Position numbers and translations under genes: made by a program
Part shown: piece by piece, positions 6,205-35,194 of the stretch
Layout of the letters: every line of letters starts with the position of its first letter
How positions within the stretch are numbered: position 1 is the stretch's first letter
Virus record (IMG/VR): IMGVR_UViG_3300034082_004296
Location: 62,001-126,000 of that record
Origin: a virus
Length of the DNA stretch: 64,000 nucleotides
Reading direction: 5' to 3' (one strand)
The notes under the pieces: generated by a model
Database searches by the model: none
What the model saw: the letters and a program-made list of their open reading frames with translations, nothing else
Told to the model about the DNA's origin: nothing

Positions 6205-8172
6205 ATGTCATATTTGTTAAATTATAAAAATTGGAGAGCACTATATGAAAGCCAAACTAATATTTTTGAAGATGGAGAAGACCCATACGGAGGAGTTGGT
6301 ATGATTGATGATACCAAAATCAAAGATAAAGGCACAGTTGATCCATTTGCAGACATGCCAAAAGAGGGCAAGAAAAGATTAGAGTATTTAGTAAATAAAG
6401 CAGGAGACCTAGATTCACAGGCGATAAAAAAGGCAGGAGCAGCGCCAGCAACTTCACTTCTACCCTACGATGCAATAACTGACTGGATGATTACTGCAGG
6501 TAAGCCTACTACAAGGAGCGATGGAAAAGGAGGATATAAAGATTTTTCACCAGAATGGAAGAAAAGATTTAAAGATAGAGAGCCTTCCATGAAATTAGAA
6601 GACTGTATTCAATGTATGCAGTATTGGAATGGAATAATTGATACGACTAAAACAAAAAAAGAAACTATTGAAATAAACGGTAAACCGTATGATGTTGCAA
6701 ATTATGACACTGCTCGAGTAATTAGACAATTGGATCAATTAAGTAATCTCAAAAAAGTTAAATCTTTAGTAGAAGAGGCATGGAAGGCTAAAGGCATTAT
6801 ATATTTTAATACTGGCTCGCCTTCAGAATATGAGTTTGAAGGAACTAAGTATTCTATTGAGAAAGACAAACAGGTAACATTTGACCCAAATTTAATCGTT
6901 GAAAAGAGTAAGATTTTACTAGAAAAAGCGAAAAAAACATTTGTAAACACTGGAAAAACCAGAAGAAATTCAAAGACTGATATGCTTTCTCCAAACCCCA
7001 ATTCAGATAATGTATGGTTTGATACAGGAGAGGGAGGAAAATATTATTCAAAGAAATCTAGAGATCAAACTGGAAGCTTTTGGCTATGGTATCAAATAAT
7101 ATCGGACGATGCTCAATTTCAAAAGTTATTAGCTAGATTCGATGATCCAACTTATGTGAGGACAGTATTCACAAAAATGACGGAGCAGGATAAGATAAAC
7201 ATAATAAAGGGTATTTCGGACGCTGCACAGAAGAAATTTGAGAAAGGATCAGTCGGAGCAATGGAAGGGATCTATGGCGCTACTTCCATCGTGTGGTGGC
7301 CGGTTGAAGCTAAAGAGACGATGCCAAAAACAACGGTCCTTAAACCAGCTAGTCCAGGAATTGACGTTGAATATGAAAATGAATGGGACTTTTCTTGGCC
7401 GTATGCTAAAGAAGGAGGAGTAGGAAAAGAACTTGCAATGACCTACTTTAAGAGTGATTCAGCAATAATACAAGATGGCAAGGACAAAGAGATAGACAAT
7501 GCAGTCAAGCAAATCATGGCTGAAATTAAGAGCAAAAATGGTACTCTTAAATCATTAAAGTATAGAGTAGTAGCATCGACGAGTGACGAACCTTCTAAAT
7601 ATGCAAGCCCTAATAAAGTAGCCGCAAAATACGATATTGCAAATAATCAACCTTTAGTTAGAGACCGTGCTAAGGTAATCGAAACTGCCCTAACTGCTGC
7701 GATCACTGCGAACGGAATTGATCCGACCCTGGTCACTAAAGACGGCGAAGACCTTACTCCTAATAATATTCTAGACGATGGAAGTGCAAAATACCAAGAG
7801 AAAAAATGGATGCGGCTTGATCATAAGGACCCTAGAGCAACGGCTGCTACTGATGCTGAATATAAAGCACTATTCGCTAAACCTAAACATTCAGGGCTTC
7901 TATTTAATATAGTATATACAACCATTGAAAAGGAAAAGAGTGAACCTACTCCTGAAGAAACGACCGTATCTGATTATGAGGTAGTAGGAGAATGGCTATT
8001 CGAGATCAAGTGGGCAGGCGGAGGAAGCTACAAGAAAAAGAGAAGAAGAACTCACACTAGAAGACCGATGAGGGGAATCCCTTGGGATAAATTGTTTCCG
8101 CCTCTTCCTGCAGGTGGAGGATGGAGCGTCGAAGACTTATGTGACGCATATGGTAGATCAGGACCAGGATAG
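6205..8172 (+). CDS. Putative virion protein with capsid-targeting-like N-terminus and OmpA-like segment, 655 aa
   Basis: The product is not recognised as a whole. The N-terminus, LLNYKNWRALYESQ, is almost the same as that of the 514-aa protein downstream and fits a prohead targeting/cleavage signal (aromatic pair followed by LYE, cleavage expected after Glu15). Near residues 410-515 there is an OmpA/MotB-like pattern: an acidic strand start (YFKSDSAIIQDG), the strand YRVVASTSDEPS, then N..LVRDRAKVIETALTAAI, the position where OmpA domains carry their N..LS..RA helix. The C-terminus is basic, with KKKRRRTHTRRP, which could contact DNA. A late promoter precedes it and a hairpin terminator follows at 8206, so it is a single-gene late unit. 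I infer a structural or co-packaged protein; the peptidoglycan-binding role typical of OmpA domains is not proven. Confidence 0.8.
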   Translation: MSYLLNYKNWRALYESQTNIFEDGEDPYGGVGMIDDTKIKDKGTVDPFADMPKEGKKRLEYLVNKAGDLDSQAIKKAGAAPATSLLPYDAITDWMITAGKPTTRSDGKGGYKDFSPEWKKRFKDREPSMKLEDCIQCMQYWNGIIDTTKTKKETIEINGKPYDVANYDTARVIRQLDQLSNLKKVKSLVEEAWKAKGIIYFNTGSPSEYEFEGTKYSIEKDKQVTFDPNLIVEKSKILLEKAKKTFVNTGKTRRNSKTDMLSPNPNSDNVWFDTGEGGKYYSKKSRDQTGSFWLWYQIISDDAQFQKLLARFDDPTYVRTVFTKMTEQDKINIIKGISDAAQKKFEKGSVGAMEGIYGATSIVWWPVEAKETMPKTTVLKPASPGIDVEYENEWDFSWPYAKEGGVGKELAMTYFKSDSAIIQDGKDKEIDNAVKQIMAEIKSKNGTLKSLKYRVVASTSDEPSKYASPNKVAAKYDIANNQPLVRDRAKVIETALTAAITANGIDPTLVTKDGEDLTPNNILDDGSAKYQEKKWMRLDHKDPRATAATDAEYKALFAKPKHSGLLFNIVYTTIEKEKSEPTPEETTVSDYEVVGEWLFEIKWAGGGSYKKKRRRTHTRRPMRGIPWDKLFPPLPAGGGWSVEDLCDAYGRSGPG

Positions 8173-8865: not shown

Positions 8866-10410
8866 ATGGGTGGTTATTTATTAAATTATAACAAGTGGAG
8901 AGCTCTATATGAGTCAGCTCAACTAAATGAGGCAATTGAGATACCTGGATTTAATCTTAAACCGGTAGAAAAAGGAAATAAGCTAGTTTCTAGAGTTTCG
9001 TATCCATCACTTGGAATTAATCCAAAATACGATAATGAGCTAAATTCAATCATGACTAAAACAGTCGGTAAGGAGACAATTCCTAAGTTATTTGTAGTAA
9101 ATGGTAGTGAAGTTGATTCTCAGGCTGAATATCGAAAAATATTTACTGCGCTAGTTTATGGAGTGATCCAATATTTTGAAGATGATACATTAAAGGATAA
9201 GATCGATGATATTGCTCCACAACTTAAATTCACAACAACGATTTCAGGTAAAGTACAATTGTATGGTTCAAGTAGTGGAAGGATTAGTACACAAGGACAA
9301 ATTGTGGAACCGAATACTGGTGGGGCAGTCTATATTTCAAACACAGCTGACACTAAAGAGTCATCAGTAATCGGGATATGTAAATATATCAATGGATTTA
9401 ATTTACAGAATTGGATGACAGGTAATTTCCTACAGATAGATCCAACGAAGATTCTTGATCAAAACAATGTAACTGATTTAACTGGAGCGATGAGAGAGGC
9501 ATATGTTGAAGAACGAGGATTCTTACGATTAGTCAGTCCAGCAAGTGCAAGCATTACTGCTGGAGCAAGGGGTACTGAGACTGAAACTGTTCAAGGTGCA
9601 CAGGCGCAAACTGGTAATGCAGAGATTGCATTTACTGCTGGAAAATCAGATATTGATGATAAAGGAGTTAAAGTTGATGCAAATCACCCTAAAGTAAAAG
9701 AGATTGGTGACAAGATCATAGGGTATTTAGGAAACAATGGTGTAATTGATTCAATGACGTTAACCTCATCTGCAAGTCCAGAATATGGATCGATCCAAAA
9801 CGTTGCAGGCTGGGAAAAATCTTATCCTAAGGGGACTACTGGAACAGCTGATCCTGGTGCAGGAGCGGATGACGCTGGTAAAAACATGAAGCTTGCATAC
9901 GATCGAGGAGTCGTATTTAGTAATGCGTTATACGCTTATTTAGGAGGACATGTAAAACAAAATGCAATTGCCGTTTCTTGGAAGATCTCAACTGATGCTC
10001 CAGGAGGAGGAAAGAATATCACTTACTCAGTTGCTACTAAAAGTGAATCTCCACAAACAATCACAAAAACGACTTACCAAGGAGCAAAAGTATCTGTCAA
10101 AAATGAAGATAACTCAATCGTAGTCTATAAGATTACGTATGATGCGTCAGCAATTGCTAAAAATAAAGATGGACTTTTCACAAAAGAACGAATTGATTAT
10201 AATAAATTAAAAGTAGGTGATAAGATCATAGTATACGCTAAGGACATGAAGACTAAACTTGGAAAAGATGAAGATGAACCTGTCACAGTAAGTAAGGTTG
10301 AAGATAATAATGTTTACGTAAATTATAAAGAAAACACCGATATCTTGATACCTAAAGATAGATACATTAAACAAGTAGGAAAAGCTGAAAAGCAAGAAGC
10401 TGAAATCTAA
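8866..10410 (+). CDS. Putative virion protein with capsid-targeting-like N-terminus and OmpA-like domain, 514 aa
   Basis: The N-terminus YLLNYNKWRALYESAQ matches that of the 655-aa protein almost residue for residue although the rest differs; cleavage would be expected after Glu16 (LYE). Residues about 250-390 resemble an OmpA-like domain: IAFTAGKSDIDDKGVKVD (opening strand with acidic turn), IGDKIIGYLGNNG (helix), MTLTSSASPEYG (the strand that carries G-x-T/A-D in OmpA), then N.KLAYDRGVVFSNAL (the RA helix). The C-terminal 100 residues are lysine-rich with a beta-strand-rich, SH3-like appearance (KLKVGDKIIVYAKD). It has a late promoter upstream and a strong terminator at 10434, so it is another single-gene late unit. 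I infer a co-packaged or structural protein; the family is not recognised. Confidence 0.8.
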   Translation: MGGYLLNYNKWRALYESAQLNEAIEIPGFNLKPVEKGNKLVSRVSYPSLGINPKYDNELNSIMTKTVGKETIPKLFVVNGSEVDSQAEYRKIFTALVYGVIQYFEDDTLKDKIDDIAPQLKFTTTISGKVQLYGSSSGRISTQGQIVEPNTGGAVYISNTADTKESSVIGICKYINGFNLQNWMTGNFLQIDPTKILDQNNVTDLTGAMREAYVEERGFLRLVSPASASITAGARGTETETVQGAQAQTGNAEIAFTAGKSDIDDKGVKVDANHPKVKEIGDKIIGYLGNNGVIDSMTLTSSASPEYGSIQNVAGWEKSYPKGTTGTADPGAGADDAGKNMKLAYDRGVVFSNALYAYLGGHVKQNAIAVSWKISTDAPGGGKNITYSVATKSESPQTITKTTYQGAKVSVKNEDNSIVVYKITYDASAIAKNKDGLFTKERIDYNKLKVGDKIIVYAKDMKTKLGKDEDEPVTVSKVEDNNVYVNYKENTDILIPKDRYIKQVGKAEKQEAEI

Positions 10411-13327: not shown

Positions 13328-14032
13328 ATGGAAATGTTTAACACACATCGTCGAGATATCCTAAATTTCGATAACTATATGGATCTTAAGAAACCAGGAT
13401 TCGGAGGACCTAAATCTGCAATCGAATTACGGGATGCTCGAGGTAATATGAATGATCGCGATCCTAAACTTAAAGGATTTAGACGAACTGTTGAGAGAGA
13501 CCCTGCTTTTTCTCACCCTGTATACGACCCTACGTACAAGGCAATGACTGGCGATCTTGTTTATCGACAAGAAAAAAAGAAGCCGTTTACGTATGATGAT
13601 CGAATCACTGGAATTCCAGTTGTAGAGATCGAACCAGTAGAAGAGGGAAGAGCCTATTCTTCATTTACCCGATTCATTAATGAAGAAGTAGAAGATGAGT
13701 TAGAAGACGAATTGGATGCTGAATTAGAAGATGAGTTAGAAGATGAGTTAGAAGACAATCAATATGCTGAATTAGAAAATGATTATGAAGAGAGTGACTC
13801 AGATGATTGGAACGAAGATGAATATCGTCAGGAGGCAACTGCTTTCAATAATACTATGTCAGACCTGCGTAGCATAGAGGCTATGCTTCGAGGATTTGAA
13901 AACGGAGAAAACTTTGATGATGAAGAGGAAGACTTTGGTACAAACCCATTAGAAGACGAGGAGAGTCCGTTTGGAGAGATACCCGACTGGGTAAAGGAGC
14001 TTCAAGCTCCAGAAGATTCTGAAGGATATTAA
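13328..14032 (+). CDS. Acidic late protein with Glu/Asp/Leu repeats and internal SFTRFINEE motif, 234 aa
   Basis: I do not recognise a family. Residues 1-110 are basic to neutral (with LNFDNYMDLKK near the start); SSFTRFINEE at 111-120 has the same F-x-x-F-I-N-E core that begins two other proteins of this phage; a low-complexity acidic run of ED-E-L-type repeats follows (about 121-145), and the C-terminal half stays strongly acidic. An internal I-N-E before an acidic tail could be a prohead protease site, so a scaffold or core protein processed during head maturation is one reading. The gene follows the tail tube gene by 15 nt and ends at a terminator. Confidence 0.75.
   Translation: MEMFNTHRRDILNFDNYMDLKKPGFGGPKSAIELRDARGNMNDRDPKLKGFRRTVERDPAFSHPVYDPTYKAMTGDLVYRQEKKKPFTYDDRITGIPVVEIEPVEEGRAYSSFTRFINEEVEDELEDELDAELEDELEDELEDNQYAELENDYEESDSDDWNEDEYRQEATAFNNTMSDLRSIEAMLRGFENGENFDDEEEDFGTNPLEDEESPFGEIPDWVKELQAPEDSEGY
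13691..13756 (+). repeat. Short tandem coding repeat (GATGAGTTAGAA-like units)
   Basis: The unit GAAGATGAGTTA or close variants recurs about five times in tandem, encoding E-D-E-L-type residues in the acidic protein. Some units are identical at the DNA level, which suggests recent slippage expansion. Confidence 0.8.
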
Positions 14033-21086: not shown

Positions 21087-21417
21087 TCGTTAAGTAAAAA
21101 TAAGTTAATCCTTTTTTTGTAAAATAGATGAATTCTCCTTGAGTAGTAAGATATTCTTCGTTGATCATCGTCTTTAATGATTTAACTAAGTTTGTCTTAA
21201 AAGTTTCATCTTTTATCCTTTCACCAAAAACGTATTTTAGAGACTTGGATGAAAACTTTATGCCATCCGGGTCAATATCCTTGTCTTTGGAAGCAGCAAC
21301 CCTTATAATGTACTGTAGGATCTCAAAAAGGAGGGTAAACTCATCGCTCAATCCCTCCTCATTATATAAGTTCAGATAATACTTTATCGGTAGATCAGAA
21401 CGTAGATTCATCGTCAT
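21079..21417 (-). CDS. Hypothetical protein, 112 aa, possible winged-helix
   Basis: A small basic protein between UvsX and the helicase, overlapping both neighbours (23 nt and 8 nt). The C-terminal half (LVKSLKTMINEEYLTTQGE then FIYFTKKGLTYF) has the helix-turn-strand-strand pattern of winged-helix proteins. Its position next to gene 41 makes a helicase-loading or accessory role imaginable, but it is half the size of T4 gp59 and I see no clear similarity. Confidence 0.7.
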   Translation of the reverse strand: MTMNLRSDLPIKYYLNLYNEEGLSDEFTLLFEILQYIIRVAASKDKDIDPDGIKFSSKSLKYVFGERIKDETFKTNLVKSLKTMINEEYLTTQGEFIYFTKKGLTYFYLTND

Positions 21418-33311: not shown

Positions 33312-33581
33312 TTACTTAGCTGAAATCTCGTCAGTTAGAACTTGGCGAAGGTTTTTTGCTCCTTCTTGAATCTTAGTCATTTCAGCTTTAACCATTGGAT
33401 GCTTGATTGCTTTTCTAATCTCTTGCATTTTCTTTTTAAGTCTGTTTCCAGCGCTTTTTACGCCTTTTCCATAATACTTATCAGCATCGTCTTCTGCTGA
33501 AGATACAAGAGAAACAATCGGTTCGAATATTGCAGCCTGTGCTGATGCAATTTCCGCTTTTAATTTTTCAAAATCGTTCAT
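33312..33581 (-). CDS. Histone H1-like DNA-binding protein (Bacteroidota type)
   Basis: An 89-aa basic helical protein. DADKYYGKGVKSAGNRLKKK followed by MQEIRKAIKH matches the pattern of the small histone H1-like proteins found in Bacteroidota (acidic/aromatic turn, K-G-x-x-x-A-G-x-R-x-R/K-K). It would bind and compact DNA or influence transcription, possibly of the host nucleoid. It is a single-gene unit with a TATAAT-type element upstream (33600-33609) and its own terminator. The family assignment comes from the motif alone. Confidence 0.65.
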   Translation of the reverse strand: MNDFEKLKAEIASAQAAIFEPIVSLVSSAEDDADKYYGKGVKSAGNRLKKKMQEIRKAIKHPMVKAEMTKIQEGAKNLRQVLTDEISAK

Positions 33582-33627: not shown

Positions 33628-34377
33628 TTATATTGAATTAACTATATGATCTACTTTGCTTGAGAAAGTAGCGTCTGGATATAGTTCTAGAGCTCGAGTA
33701 ACCCATACTTCCATGACATGATCGTATTCTGACTCACTCATGTAATTAGATTCAATAAAAGGCAGGAGATAATCGTCAAAAACTTGATCGATTGGACAGT
33801 TTTGCTCCTTTGAGCTATAGTACATTCCTTCAATCATTGATTCTATCTCGTCCATCAATAGAAAGTAACGATAACTCTTTTTAGCTCCTTCCCTTTTGTG
33901 TTTACTGCTAACCTGAGAATTAAAAGGCGAGCGGTTCATTCCTAACTGATCTAGGTGATTTGTTTCGTGTGATAAAATATCAATTAGTCGATAGTGTAAT
34001 TTACTATATAGGATCGGCTCTTCTCTAGGATTTAGGATAATATGAACTATTATTTTTGGAACAGCTACTGTAGATCTACTCATTCTAGTATTAGCGTCTA
34101 TACTGTATCCAAGTTTATCAAAGTTTATCTTTTCCCAAGGAAGACCCTCAAAGTGACTGTCTTCTTCTAAGTCAGGTGAAGAGTCTCTACGAACATTTAG
34201 GATCAAATCAAAGGTAAATGGTTCAATAAATTCCATTCCAGAAAAAACAGAATACTCTGTGCTCTCACCTGTAGGTGAAGTACGAATCTTTGTGATTAGA
34301 GTTTGAGCCAATCTTTTGATAAACTCTTCCTTGCTATCCACGTTTTCATTTATGAATTGATTGAAAGACTTAATCAT
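33628..34377 (-). CDS. Putative HExxH metalloprotein with capsid-targeting-like N-terminus, 249 aa
   Basis: The N-terminus MIKSFNQFINENVD closely resembles T4 capsid-targeting sequences of the M-K-T-Y-Q-E-F-I-x-E type, with I-N-E ending at Glu11 as the expected prohead protease site. HETNH at 137-141 in DILSHETNHLDQLG is an HExxH zinc-metallopeptidase motif; DEIESMIEGMYY about 30 residues downstream could give the third ligand. The rest is not assigned to a family. It is the last gene of a three-gene cassette (35112 to 33628) that begins with a late promoter on the minus strand, and all three members carry the same kind of N-terminus. I infer a protease-like protein packaged in the head, possibly injected with DNA; activity is unproven. 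Confidence 0.75.
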   Translation of the reverse strand: MIKSFNQFINENVDSKEEFIKRLAQTLITKIRTSPTGESTEYSVFSGMEFIEPFTFDLILNVRRDSSPDLEEDSHFEGLPWEKINFDKLGYSIDANTRMSRSTVAVPKIIVHIILNPREEPILYSKLHYRLIDILSHETNHLDQLGMNRSPFNSQVSSKHKREGAKKSYRYFLLMDEIESMIEGMYYSSKEQNCPIDQVFDDYLLPFIESNYMSESEYDHVMEVWVTRALELYPDATFSSKVDHIVNSI

Positions 34378-34889
34378 TATCTTTTATGTTTTACAAAAGT
34401 CACCTCTATTTCATCAGTAGTAGGAGTACCGTTTGAAAAAACAACAGTAACATCTGGTAATTTCTTAGCAATTAGGTTGGCTGAAACTGCATTCTTTAAC
34501 TTTTCAATAAATTGAAGATCATCGCTTGAAATATTTGTACGATCTCCCTTGATTATGTCTTCTAAACTCTTTTGACGAATCTCTATCTCCGGCTTATTTA
34601 GGTCATTCTTATCTGAAGAAATAACGTTTTCTTTGATCCAGGCCTGCAACTTGTCCTTTTTAATTGAATAACAAGGATACTCTACCACAACGCTACCGTC
34701 TGGATATTTTCTACGAGTTGTACCAGCATCTTCTGGCCCAGTCATGAATATAAACTTATACTCTACTGGCTTTGCGCCTGGTGCACCGGGTGTTCCTGGA
34801 GCAGGCGGTGCCCCTGGCATCATTGGCGGGGCTGCCATATCTTGCTCAAATAAAAAATCAGAATATTTTTTGATGTGTTTATTTTTCAT
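34377..34889 (-). CDS. Putative virion cargo protein with Pro/Ala/Gly linker, 170 aa
   Basis: I start it at the ATG at 34889 (MKNKHIKKYSDFLFEQDM), inside the end of the upstream gene; an in-frame ATG at 34916 is possible but adds nine basic residues. The N-terminus has Y-x-x-F followed by L-F-E (cleavage after Glu15 expected). A Met/Pro/Ala/Gly-rich stretch (AAPPMMPGAPPAPGTPGAPG) connects to a globular domain of about 130 residues with no known family. The stop overlaps the start of the metalloprotein gene, so the two are coupled. Confidence 0.7.
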   Translation of the reverse strand: MKNKHIKKYSDFLFEQDMAAPPMMPGAPPAPGTPGAPGAKPVEYKFIFMTGPEDAGTTRRKYPDGSVVVEYPCYSIKKDKLQAWIKENVISSDKNDLNKPEIEIRQKSLEDIIKGDRTNISSDDLQFIEKLKNAVSANLIAKKLPDVTVVFSNGTPTTDEIEVTFVKHKR

Positions 34890-35112
34890 CTTTGTTAGAA
34901 TCTTTCTTTTTTTCAATAATCACCCCTCCACGTTCCTTCCACATTCCTCGATTTATTTGAATATCTTTATTTTTACCATCTATTGTGATCGCGCCATCTT
35001 TTACTCTTTTGACTTGATATCGCGTTCCCATCCAGCGAATGGTGTCCCCTTTTTCAATAGATTCAAATTCATTGTCCTTGCTCTCGTTTATGAACTGGTT
35101 GAAATTAAGCAT
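34879..35112 (-). CDS. Small late protein with capsid-targeting-like N-terminus, 77 aa
   Basis: The N-terminus MLNFNQFINESKD is nearly the same as that of the metalloprotein two genes downstream (F-N-Q-F-I-N-E), followed by a small beta-rich domain (GDTIRWMGTRYQVKRVKDG and VIIEKKK) resembling an SH3 or KOW-like barrel and a basic tail. It is first in the minus-strand cassette and has the late promoter (35121-35137) directly upstream. The function is unknown. Confidence 0.75.
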   Translation of the reverse strand: MLNFNQFINESKDNEFESIEKGDTIRWMGTRYQVKRVKDGAITIDGKNKDIQINRGMWKERGGVIIEKKKDSNKDEK

Positions 35113-35120
35113 GAAACTAG

Positions 35121-35137
35121 ATTTTTTATTATTTATC
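35121..35137 (-). promoter_or_regulatory. Late promoter on the minus strand
   Basis: The minus strand reads GATAAATAATAAAAAAT with 16 nt between the ATAAATAA core and the ATG at 35112. It is the same element as in front of plus-strand structural genes, and it heads the cassette of proteins with capsid-targeting-like N-termini inside an otherwise early region. Confidence 0.8.
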
Positions 35138-35142
35138 TAAAC

Positions 35143-35169
35143 AAAAAAGCAGCAAAGGTTATTTGCTGC
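35143..35169 (-). terminator. Rho-independent terminator of the ribonucleotide reductase unit
   Basis: On the minus strand GCAGCAAA / TTTGCTGC with a TAACC loop is followed by TTTTTTG, 25 nt after the nrdA stop and just before the late promoter of the next cassette. Confidence 0.9.
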
Positions 35170-35194
35170 TCCGATATATTTTTTTATTAGTTGC

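Follow-up and report, generated by a model that had tools for sequence, protein, structure and literature searches.

Bacteriophage T4 delivers its internal proteins IPI to III and Alt into the host, where they act (PMC12373910, PMC9958956). These cargos, which are inhibitors or an ADP-ribosyltransferase, carry an N-terminal peptide of 10-20 aa and are encoded by clustered genes behind a late promoter. The form of the T4 gp21 processing site is illustrated by Alt, whose (I/L)xE motifs are cut at ITE-6 and LTE-619 (PMC5694885). Zincin-like domains are also known from phage particles. Among the domains of polyvalent proteins they are the most frequent, and packaging in the virion is predicted for a large share of those proteins. 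Their metallopeptidase (MPTase) plan has HExxH in one helix and a third-ligand Glu in the next; processing of the polyvalent protein by the MPTase itself has been proposed (Iyer et al. 2017, PMC5512222). A further HExxH zincin-like domain, C1, is part of the virion RNA polymerase of phage N4, a protein ejected into the host (PMC12633501, PMC5512222). Packaged zincins are thus not unprecedented, and an earlier sequence-only reading of the locus described here, which knew of no described phage-injected zincin of this type, overstated the case. The N4 domain is, unlike our protein, part of a polymerase of ~3500 aa that is packaged unprocessed, and the consulted portions of its description report no targeting peptide of the type found here (PMC12633501). 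Within a partial coverage of the literature, we found no description of a small zincin that stands alone, carries a T4-type targeting peptide and is encoded in a late-promoted conserved cargo cassette.

The window, the whole stretch of 64,000 nucleotides that was analysed, is part of a viral record of 176,210 bases. The same record encodes a T4-type major capsid protein (gp23) and an S77 prohead protease, as well as tail sheath, GroES, ribonucleotide reductase and a gp32-like protein. The best database matches of the capsid protein are uncultured-phage and Prevotella-phage proteins (31-37% identity), which hints at a host among the Bacteroidota. The S77 match occupies the start of a 658-aa ORF (L047:9509-11485), possibly a fusion of the protease with another core protein. 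The S77-bearing ORF is 657-662 aa long in related records and ~200 aa in immuto-type phages. The features of the locus are as follows.

35144..35170, minus strand: intrinsic-terminator-like hairpin AGCAGCAAA...TTTGCTGC with a T-run, recognized by eye.
35129..35137, minus strand: T4-type late promoter GATAAATAA, 17 nt upstream of the first ATG of the cassette.
34879..35112, minus strand: cassette gene 1, 77 aa, N-terminus MLNFNQFINES, 11-base overlap with gene 2.
34377..34889, minus strand: cassette gene 2, upstream of the zincin-like gene, 170 aa, N-terminus MKNKHIKKYSDFLFEQ, a tag followed by a Pro-rich linker.
33628..34377, minus strand: gene for the zincin-like protein, 249 aa, with an N-terminal capsid-targeting-type peptide.
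34345..34377, minus strand: targeting-type peptide MIKSFNQFINE, codons 1-11 of the zincin-like gene, ending in an IxE site.
33955..33969, minus strand: HETNH, residues 137-141, inside predicted helix 122-145.
33847..33849, minus strand: E177, candidate third metal ligand, invariant, in predicted helix 175-192.

The zincin-like ORF runs on the minus strand from the ATG at 34377 to the stop at 33628, and its translation bears out the earlier description of a 249-aa protein that starts with MIKSFNQFINEN and has HETNH at residues 137-141. Codon-level comparison with homologues of 68-87% identity gives a dN/dS of 0.06-0.14, indicating purifying selection. The protein has no family in PHROGs, Pfam or NCBIfam, the only Pfam row being DUF5040 at E 0.17, below the cut-off, and sequence profile searches of the PDB with profiles A1, A2 and A3 gave nothing meaningful. 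None of the 85 pattern matches in bacterial genomes was confirmed as a homologue. The ORF is a single domain outside any multidomain polypeptide, and the protein is therefore a relative of the polyvalent-protein MPTases, not a polyvalent protein itself; unlike those MPTases, it stands alone and has its own targeting peptide. An 89-aa protein (window 33312-33581, minus strand) matches the histone H1-like Hc1 family (Pfam E 4.6e-12) and adjoins the gp32-like gene.

The N-terminal peptide has the same form as that of T4 IPII and IPIII, MKTYQEFIAEA, which we read directly from the T4 record AF158101. The strict pattern M-x(0-9)-[FY]xxF[ILV]xE has exactly three matches in the window, all six frames counted, and these are the starts of three adjacent minus-strand genes of 77, 170 and 249 aa. 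Among six-frame ORFs of the window, [FY]xxF[ILV]xE lies near an ORF start 3 times where 0.04 is expected, and elsewhere once. A looser pattern gives 6 N-terminal matches against 1.7 expected; of these, the match at 21395 (400 aa, minus strand) is probably due to chance. Genome-wide and with no start-codon condition, the bare pattern is found 37 times against 30 in the reversed control, so that the tag is informative only by its position at ORF starts. Across 29 aligned homologues of the zincin-like protein, S4, F5 and E11 are kept in all, F8 in 28, and position 9 is always I or V, while residue 12 is N, S, T or G. From this IxE form, a cut by the prohead protease is predicted after E11. Tag-like motifs (SSFTRFINEE, GFSKFINEE, FNQFVNE) also occur inside core-like proteins (window 13328-14032, plus strand; L139; L140), two of them strongly acidic, which suggests that the motif may serve generally for core binding or cutting.

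The three tagged genes probably share one message, since their reading frames overlap by 11 bases and, between the 170-aa gene and the start of the zincin-like gene, by 1 base. Their promoter is separated from the ribonucleotide reductase gene by the terminator-like hairpin. The T4 late promoter is TATAAATA, with a first base that is poorly conserved in relatives (PMC1524935). Its degenerate form RATAAATAA is found at 14 sites in the window (5.9 expected); with the neighbouring head-gene stretch included there are 18 sites, and 12 of them sit 15-21 nt before a start codon. The identified genes with this spacing encode tail sheath, endolysin and the S77 protease fusion; the remaining sites with this spacing lie in structural-looking stretches, save one, which is that of the cassette. 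Surrounding the cassette, the replication and nucleotide genes lack the motif. Two large late-promoted proteins without family match (window 6205-8172 and 8866-10410, plus strand) have the N-terminus LLNY(K/N)xWRALYES in common, again a peptide that ends in LxE.

About 30 homologous viral loci largely keep the order of late promoter, ~77-aa tagged gene, ~163-aa tagged gene and ~249-aa zincin gene. In some loci tagged genes are added or substituted, with products of 204 aa (L003, L004), 139 aa (L019, L021) or 142 aa (L022, L023). The 204-aa protein matches a tyrosine phosphatase in Pfam above the cut-off (E 1.9e-5) and is a candidate second packaged enzyme. Its ORF (L003:1429 and L004:1592-2203) follows a late promoter, starts with MLKSFIQFINENKKDN and contains the motif HCAHGADRTG. 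The arrangement is reminiscent of T4 in its peptide, its processing motif, its late promoter and its clustering of cargo genes. Together with the S77 gene and the cleavage-type motif at the end of the tag, the tag cassette and the late promoter support the capsid-targeting signal proposed in the sequence-only reading. The T4 internal proteins are, however, known to be in the virion and injected, whereas for the present protein both are predicted.

As to the HETNH site, all 29 aligned homologues keep H137, E138, T139, N140, H141 and E177 unchanged. One seed of the search that gathered them, HETNHLDQ, contained the motif, and the invariance was therefore re-examined with seeds lacking it, taken solely from the N-terminal ~125 residues. 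These three repeat searches, in which many recovered contigs were the same as before, yielded 23 loci, of which 22 keep HETNH; the exception, L181, is a 144-aa ORF ending before HExxH, either a sequencing error or a broken copy. All full-length ORFs of the repeat searches keep both HETNH and YFxLxxE[IV]E. D143 is not invariant and is replaced by Asn (HETNHLNQ) in one lineage. Poor conservation of the motif, which had been named as evidence against a metalloprotein, is thus not what the homologues display.

The AF2 model of the protein has a pLDDT of 85 and a pTM of 0.86. The invariant Glu177 lies in the helix after the HETNH helix, as in the polyvalent-protein MPTases (Iyer et al. 2017, PMC5512222). 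Structure prediction and comparison with zincin folds had been suggested for identifying a third ligand; E177 is a candidate, and the structural neighbours are mainly zincins, but Foldseek found no significant match in the PDB, and the VIA neighbours do not exceed Z 4.2, where unrelated folds also score. The top VIA row is the HExxH domain of the 2-oxoglutarate oxygenase 8s5f (Z 4.2, 149 residues, rmsd 4.8), rows within one Z unit being ties; HExxH alone therefore does not mean a peptidase. In BFVD the closest structures are uncultured-phage proteins, followed more weakly by a "structural" protein of Serratia phage BF (E 7e-3). As judged from sequence and model, the metalloprotein reading is supported, and a zincin metal site formed by H137, E138 and H141, probably with E177, is highly likely.

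Further relatives came to light through a divergent family member, L029: its tblastn match (E 7e-7) is to the C-terminal portion of a 907-aa protein from Flavobacterium phage immuto (record MW353176, annotated NadR). Weak matches and our own reading suggest that this protein has nucleotidyltransferase-like and NMNAT-like regions and an HEMIH motif ahead of a C-terminal HEIEH domain. With neither HEIEH nor GRYD among the seeds, searches placed the HEIEH domain in at least 80 viral loci (L049-L128), where it is mostly fused. The usual order is NMNAT-like, HEMIH zincin-like and HEIEH zincin-like, and is changed in some loci. In hhalign, the stand-alone family and the HEIEH family match at E 3.4e-14, with HETNH placed over HEIEH and E177 over E156, which is invariant among the HEIEH relatives. 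Of the two zincins in the fused proteins, the 249-aa protein is thus homologous to the second; no homology to the first, HEMIH zincin was detected. A match between profiles A2 and A3 was discarded, being confined to the overlap common to both at the junction. The model of the HEIEH domain (pLDDT 84) also has many zincin neighbours, including IrrE/PprI and ArdC, all at low Z, and a 2-oxoglutarate oxygenase HExxH domain as its third VIA row. ArdC, IrrE/PprI and M34-type zincins are low-scoring neighbours of this model (Z ~4 or below) with no sequence match. Unlike the 249-aa protein, the immuto HEIEH domain is fused to its partner domains and has no separate targeting peptide; the segment SFSDFIES inside the immuto protein looks like a tag but was rejected, as the HEIEH model places it in a beta strand.

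The linker that precedes the HEIEH domain carries a conserved site. Over 15 residues in 31 non-redundant fused proteins, Glu is found at position -1 in all 31 and Leu, Met or Ile at -3 in 30, and the linker otherwise varies freely, giving the form (L/M/I)xE-GRYD (MAE-GRYD in immuto). Only three [LIM]xE columns exist among 21 aligned fused proteins: the end of the N-terminal peptide (residue 14), the HEIEH junction and a catalytic-looking motif in the first zincin. Two stand-alone HEIEH genes begin with MKYIKQFENFLINE (L109) and MKYIKMFESFTLNE (L114), each followed directly by GRYD, so the tag of the stand-alone HEIEH protein ends exactly at the junction. From the sequence, (L/M/I)xE-GRYD appears to be a prohead-protease-type site, and cutting is predicted there. 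The Glu could instead be kept for structural reasons at the domain start, an explanation weakened by L104, in which the HEIEH domain is a separate untagged gene and the site is lost (VMRNNKYN). S77 protease genes were detected in only 10 of the 15 related records, immuto among them; the other five are partial contigs of 10-80 kb. A T4-type late promoter stands directly upstream of only 2 of 73 fused relatives, which speaks against the account given below. The junction points to the prohead protease, unlike the proposal of Iyer et al., and offers an alternative to the published self-processing of polyvalent proteins by their zincin domains; within the same partial literature coverage, we did not find it described.

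Taken together, the tag cassette, the late promoter, the S77 gene, the HEIEH homology and the LxE junction make it very probable that the 249-aa protein belongs to the internal head proteins and adopts a zincin fold. It would be made late in infection along with the two other cassette proteins and be drawn into the prohead core by its 11-residue peptide of T4 internal-protein type. The S77 prohead protease would remove the peptide after E11, and a mature gluzincin-like metalloenzyme of ~238 aa would remain in the head with the DNA and enter the next host with it. There it may be a protease of narrow specificity whose host target is most likely involved in defence or takeover, with the other tagged cassette proteins acting alongside. 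Packaging in the head is very strongly favoured, and removal of the tag is likely. Injection is probable; the case for delivery and for action in the host draws on the parallel with T4 IPI to III and Alt and on the effector-like domains that accompany the zincin in the fused relatives. Least certain is whether the enzyme cleaves a host protein, which seems to us evenly balanced. The scheme as a whole is the account we lean towards.

The protein might instead be packaged and yet act in the prohead, as a second maturation protease or a core protein that is dispensable in the next host. Being tagged and late-expressed, it resembles core proteins; the motif SFxRFINEE is also internal to acidic core-like proteins of the same phage, and uncharacterised zincins conserved in group 1 jumbo phages have been proposed as maturation proteases (PMC7824862). 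We nevertheless regard this role as unlikely, for the phage already has an S77 prohead protease, the cassette cargo is variable and includes a phosphatase-like protein, and the domains to which its nearest relatives are joined, NMNAT-like and nucleotidyltransferase-like, have no obvious role in head maturation. That the likeness of the tag to T4 internal proteins is coincidental, the protein being an ordinary cytoplasmic late protein, would be conceivable for so short a motif, but three motif starts against 0.04 expected, all in adjacent genes, and a tag conserved across the family behind a late promoter make this very improbable.

Two further possibilities concern activity, and we hold both to be quite improbable. 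A packaged HExxH protein need not be a peptidase and could be a 2-oxoglutarate-dependent oxygenase-like or other metal-dependent modifying enzyme, as the 8s5f row, best for the 249-aa protein and third for the HEIEH model, would suggest. VIA rows within one Z unit are ties, however, the other neighbours are mostly peptidases or IrrE/ArdC-type zincins, and the position of E177 in the helix after HExxH matches the phage MPTase plan (PMC5512222). The protein might also be injected like T4 IPI to III and inhibit by binding, with HETNH needed for folding and not for catalysis; Ip1, Ip2 and Ip3 of T4 do inhibit GmrSD restriction enzymes non-enzymatically (PMC12373910). Against such a role, the general-base residue E138 is as invariant as the metal ligands, including in the distant HEIEH relatives, and a purely structural metal site needs no invariant general base.

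With an injected zincin, the cargo of T4-style protein delivery would come to include a probable protease besides inhibitors and ADP-ribosyltransferases. More broadly, we tentatively propose that T4-like phages of aquatic bacteria load their heads from separate tagged enzyme genes (zincin, phosphatase and others), whose products would be matured by the prohead protease and delivered on infection, and that related phages encode the same zincin within a cargo polyprotein with effector-like domains, a polyprotein that the prohead protease would cut at the conserved LxE-GRYD junction during head maturation. A late promoter together with a targeting peptide that ends in LxE may serve as a sequence rule for packaged cargo in uncultured phages.

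Further tagged ORFs are present in the same genome (G000:C1), at ~35.8-36.3 kb (L142), ~40 kb (L144), 132.1 kb (L164), 168.1 kb (L165) and, on the minus strand, 10.0 kb (L136). Their products have 107, 97, 190, 164, 185 and ~400 aa, the 164-aa protein being NUDIX-like on our reading of its sequence. Several have RATAAATA just upstream, and these ORFs make up a larger set of probable internal head proteins.
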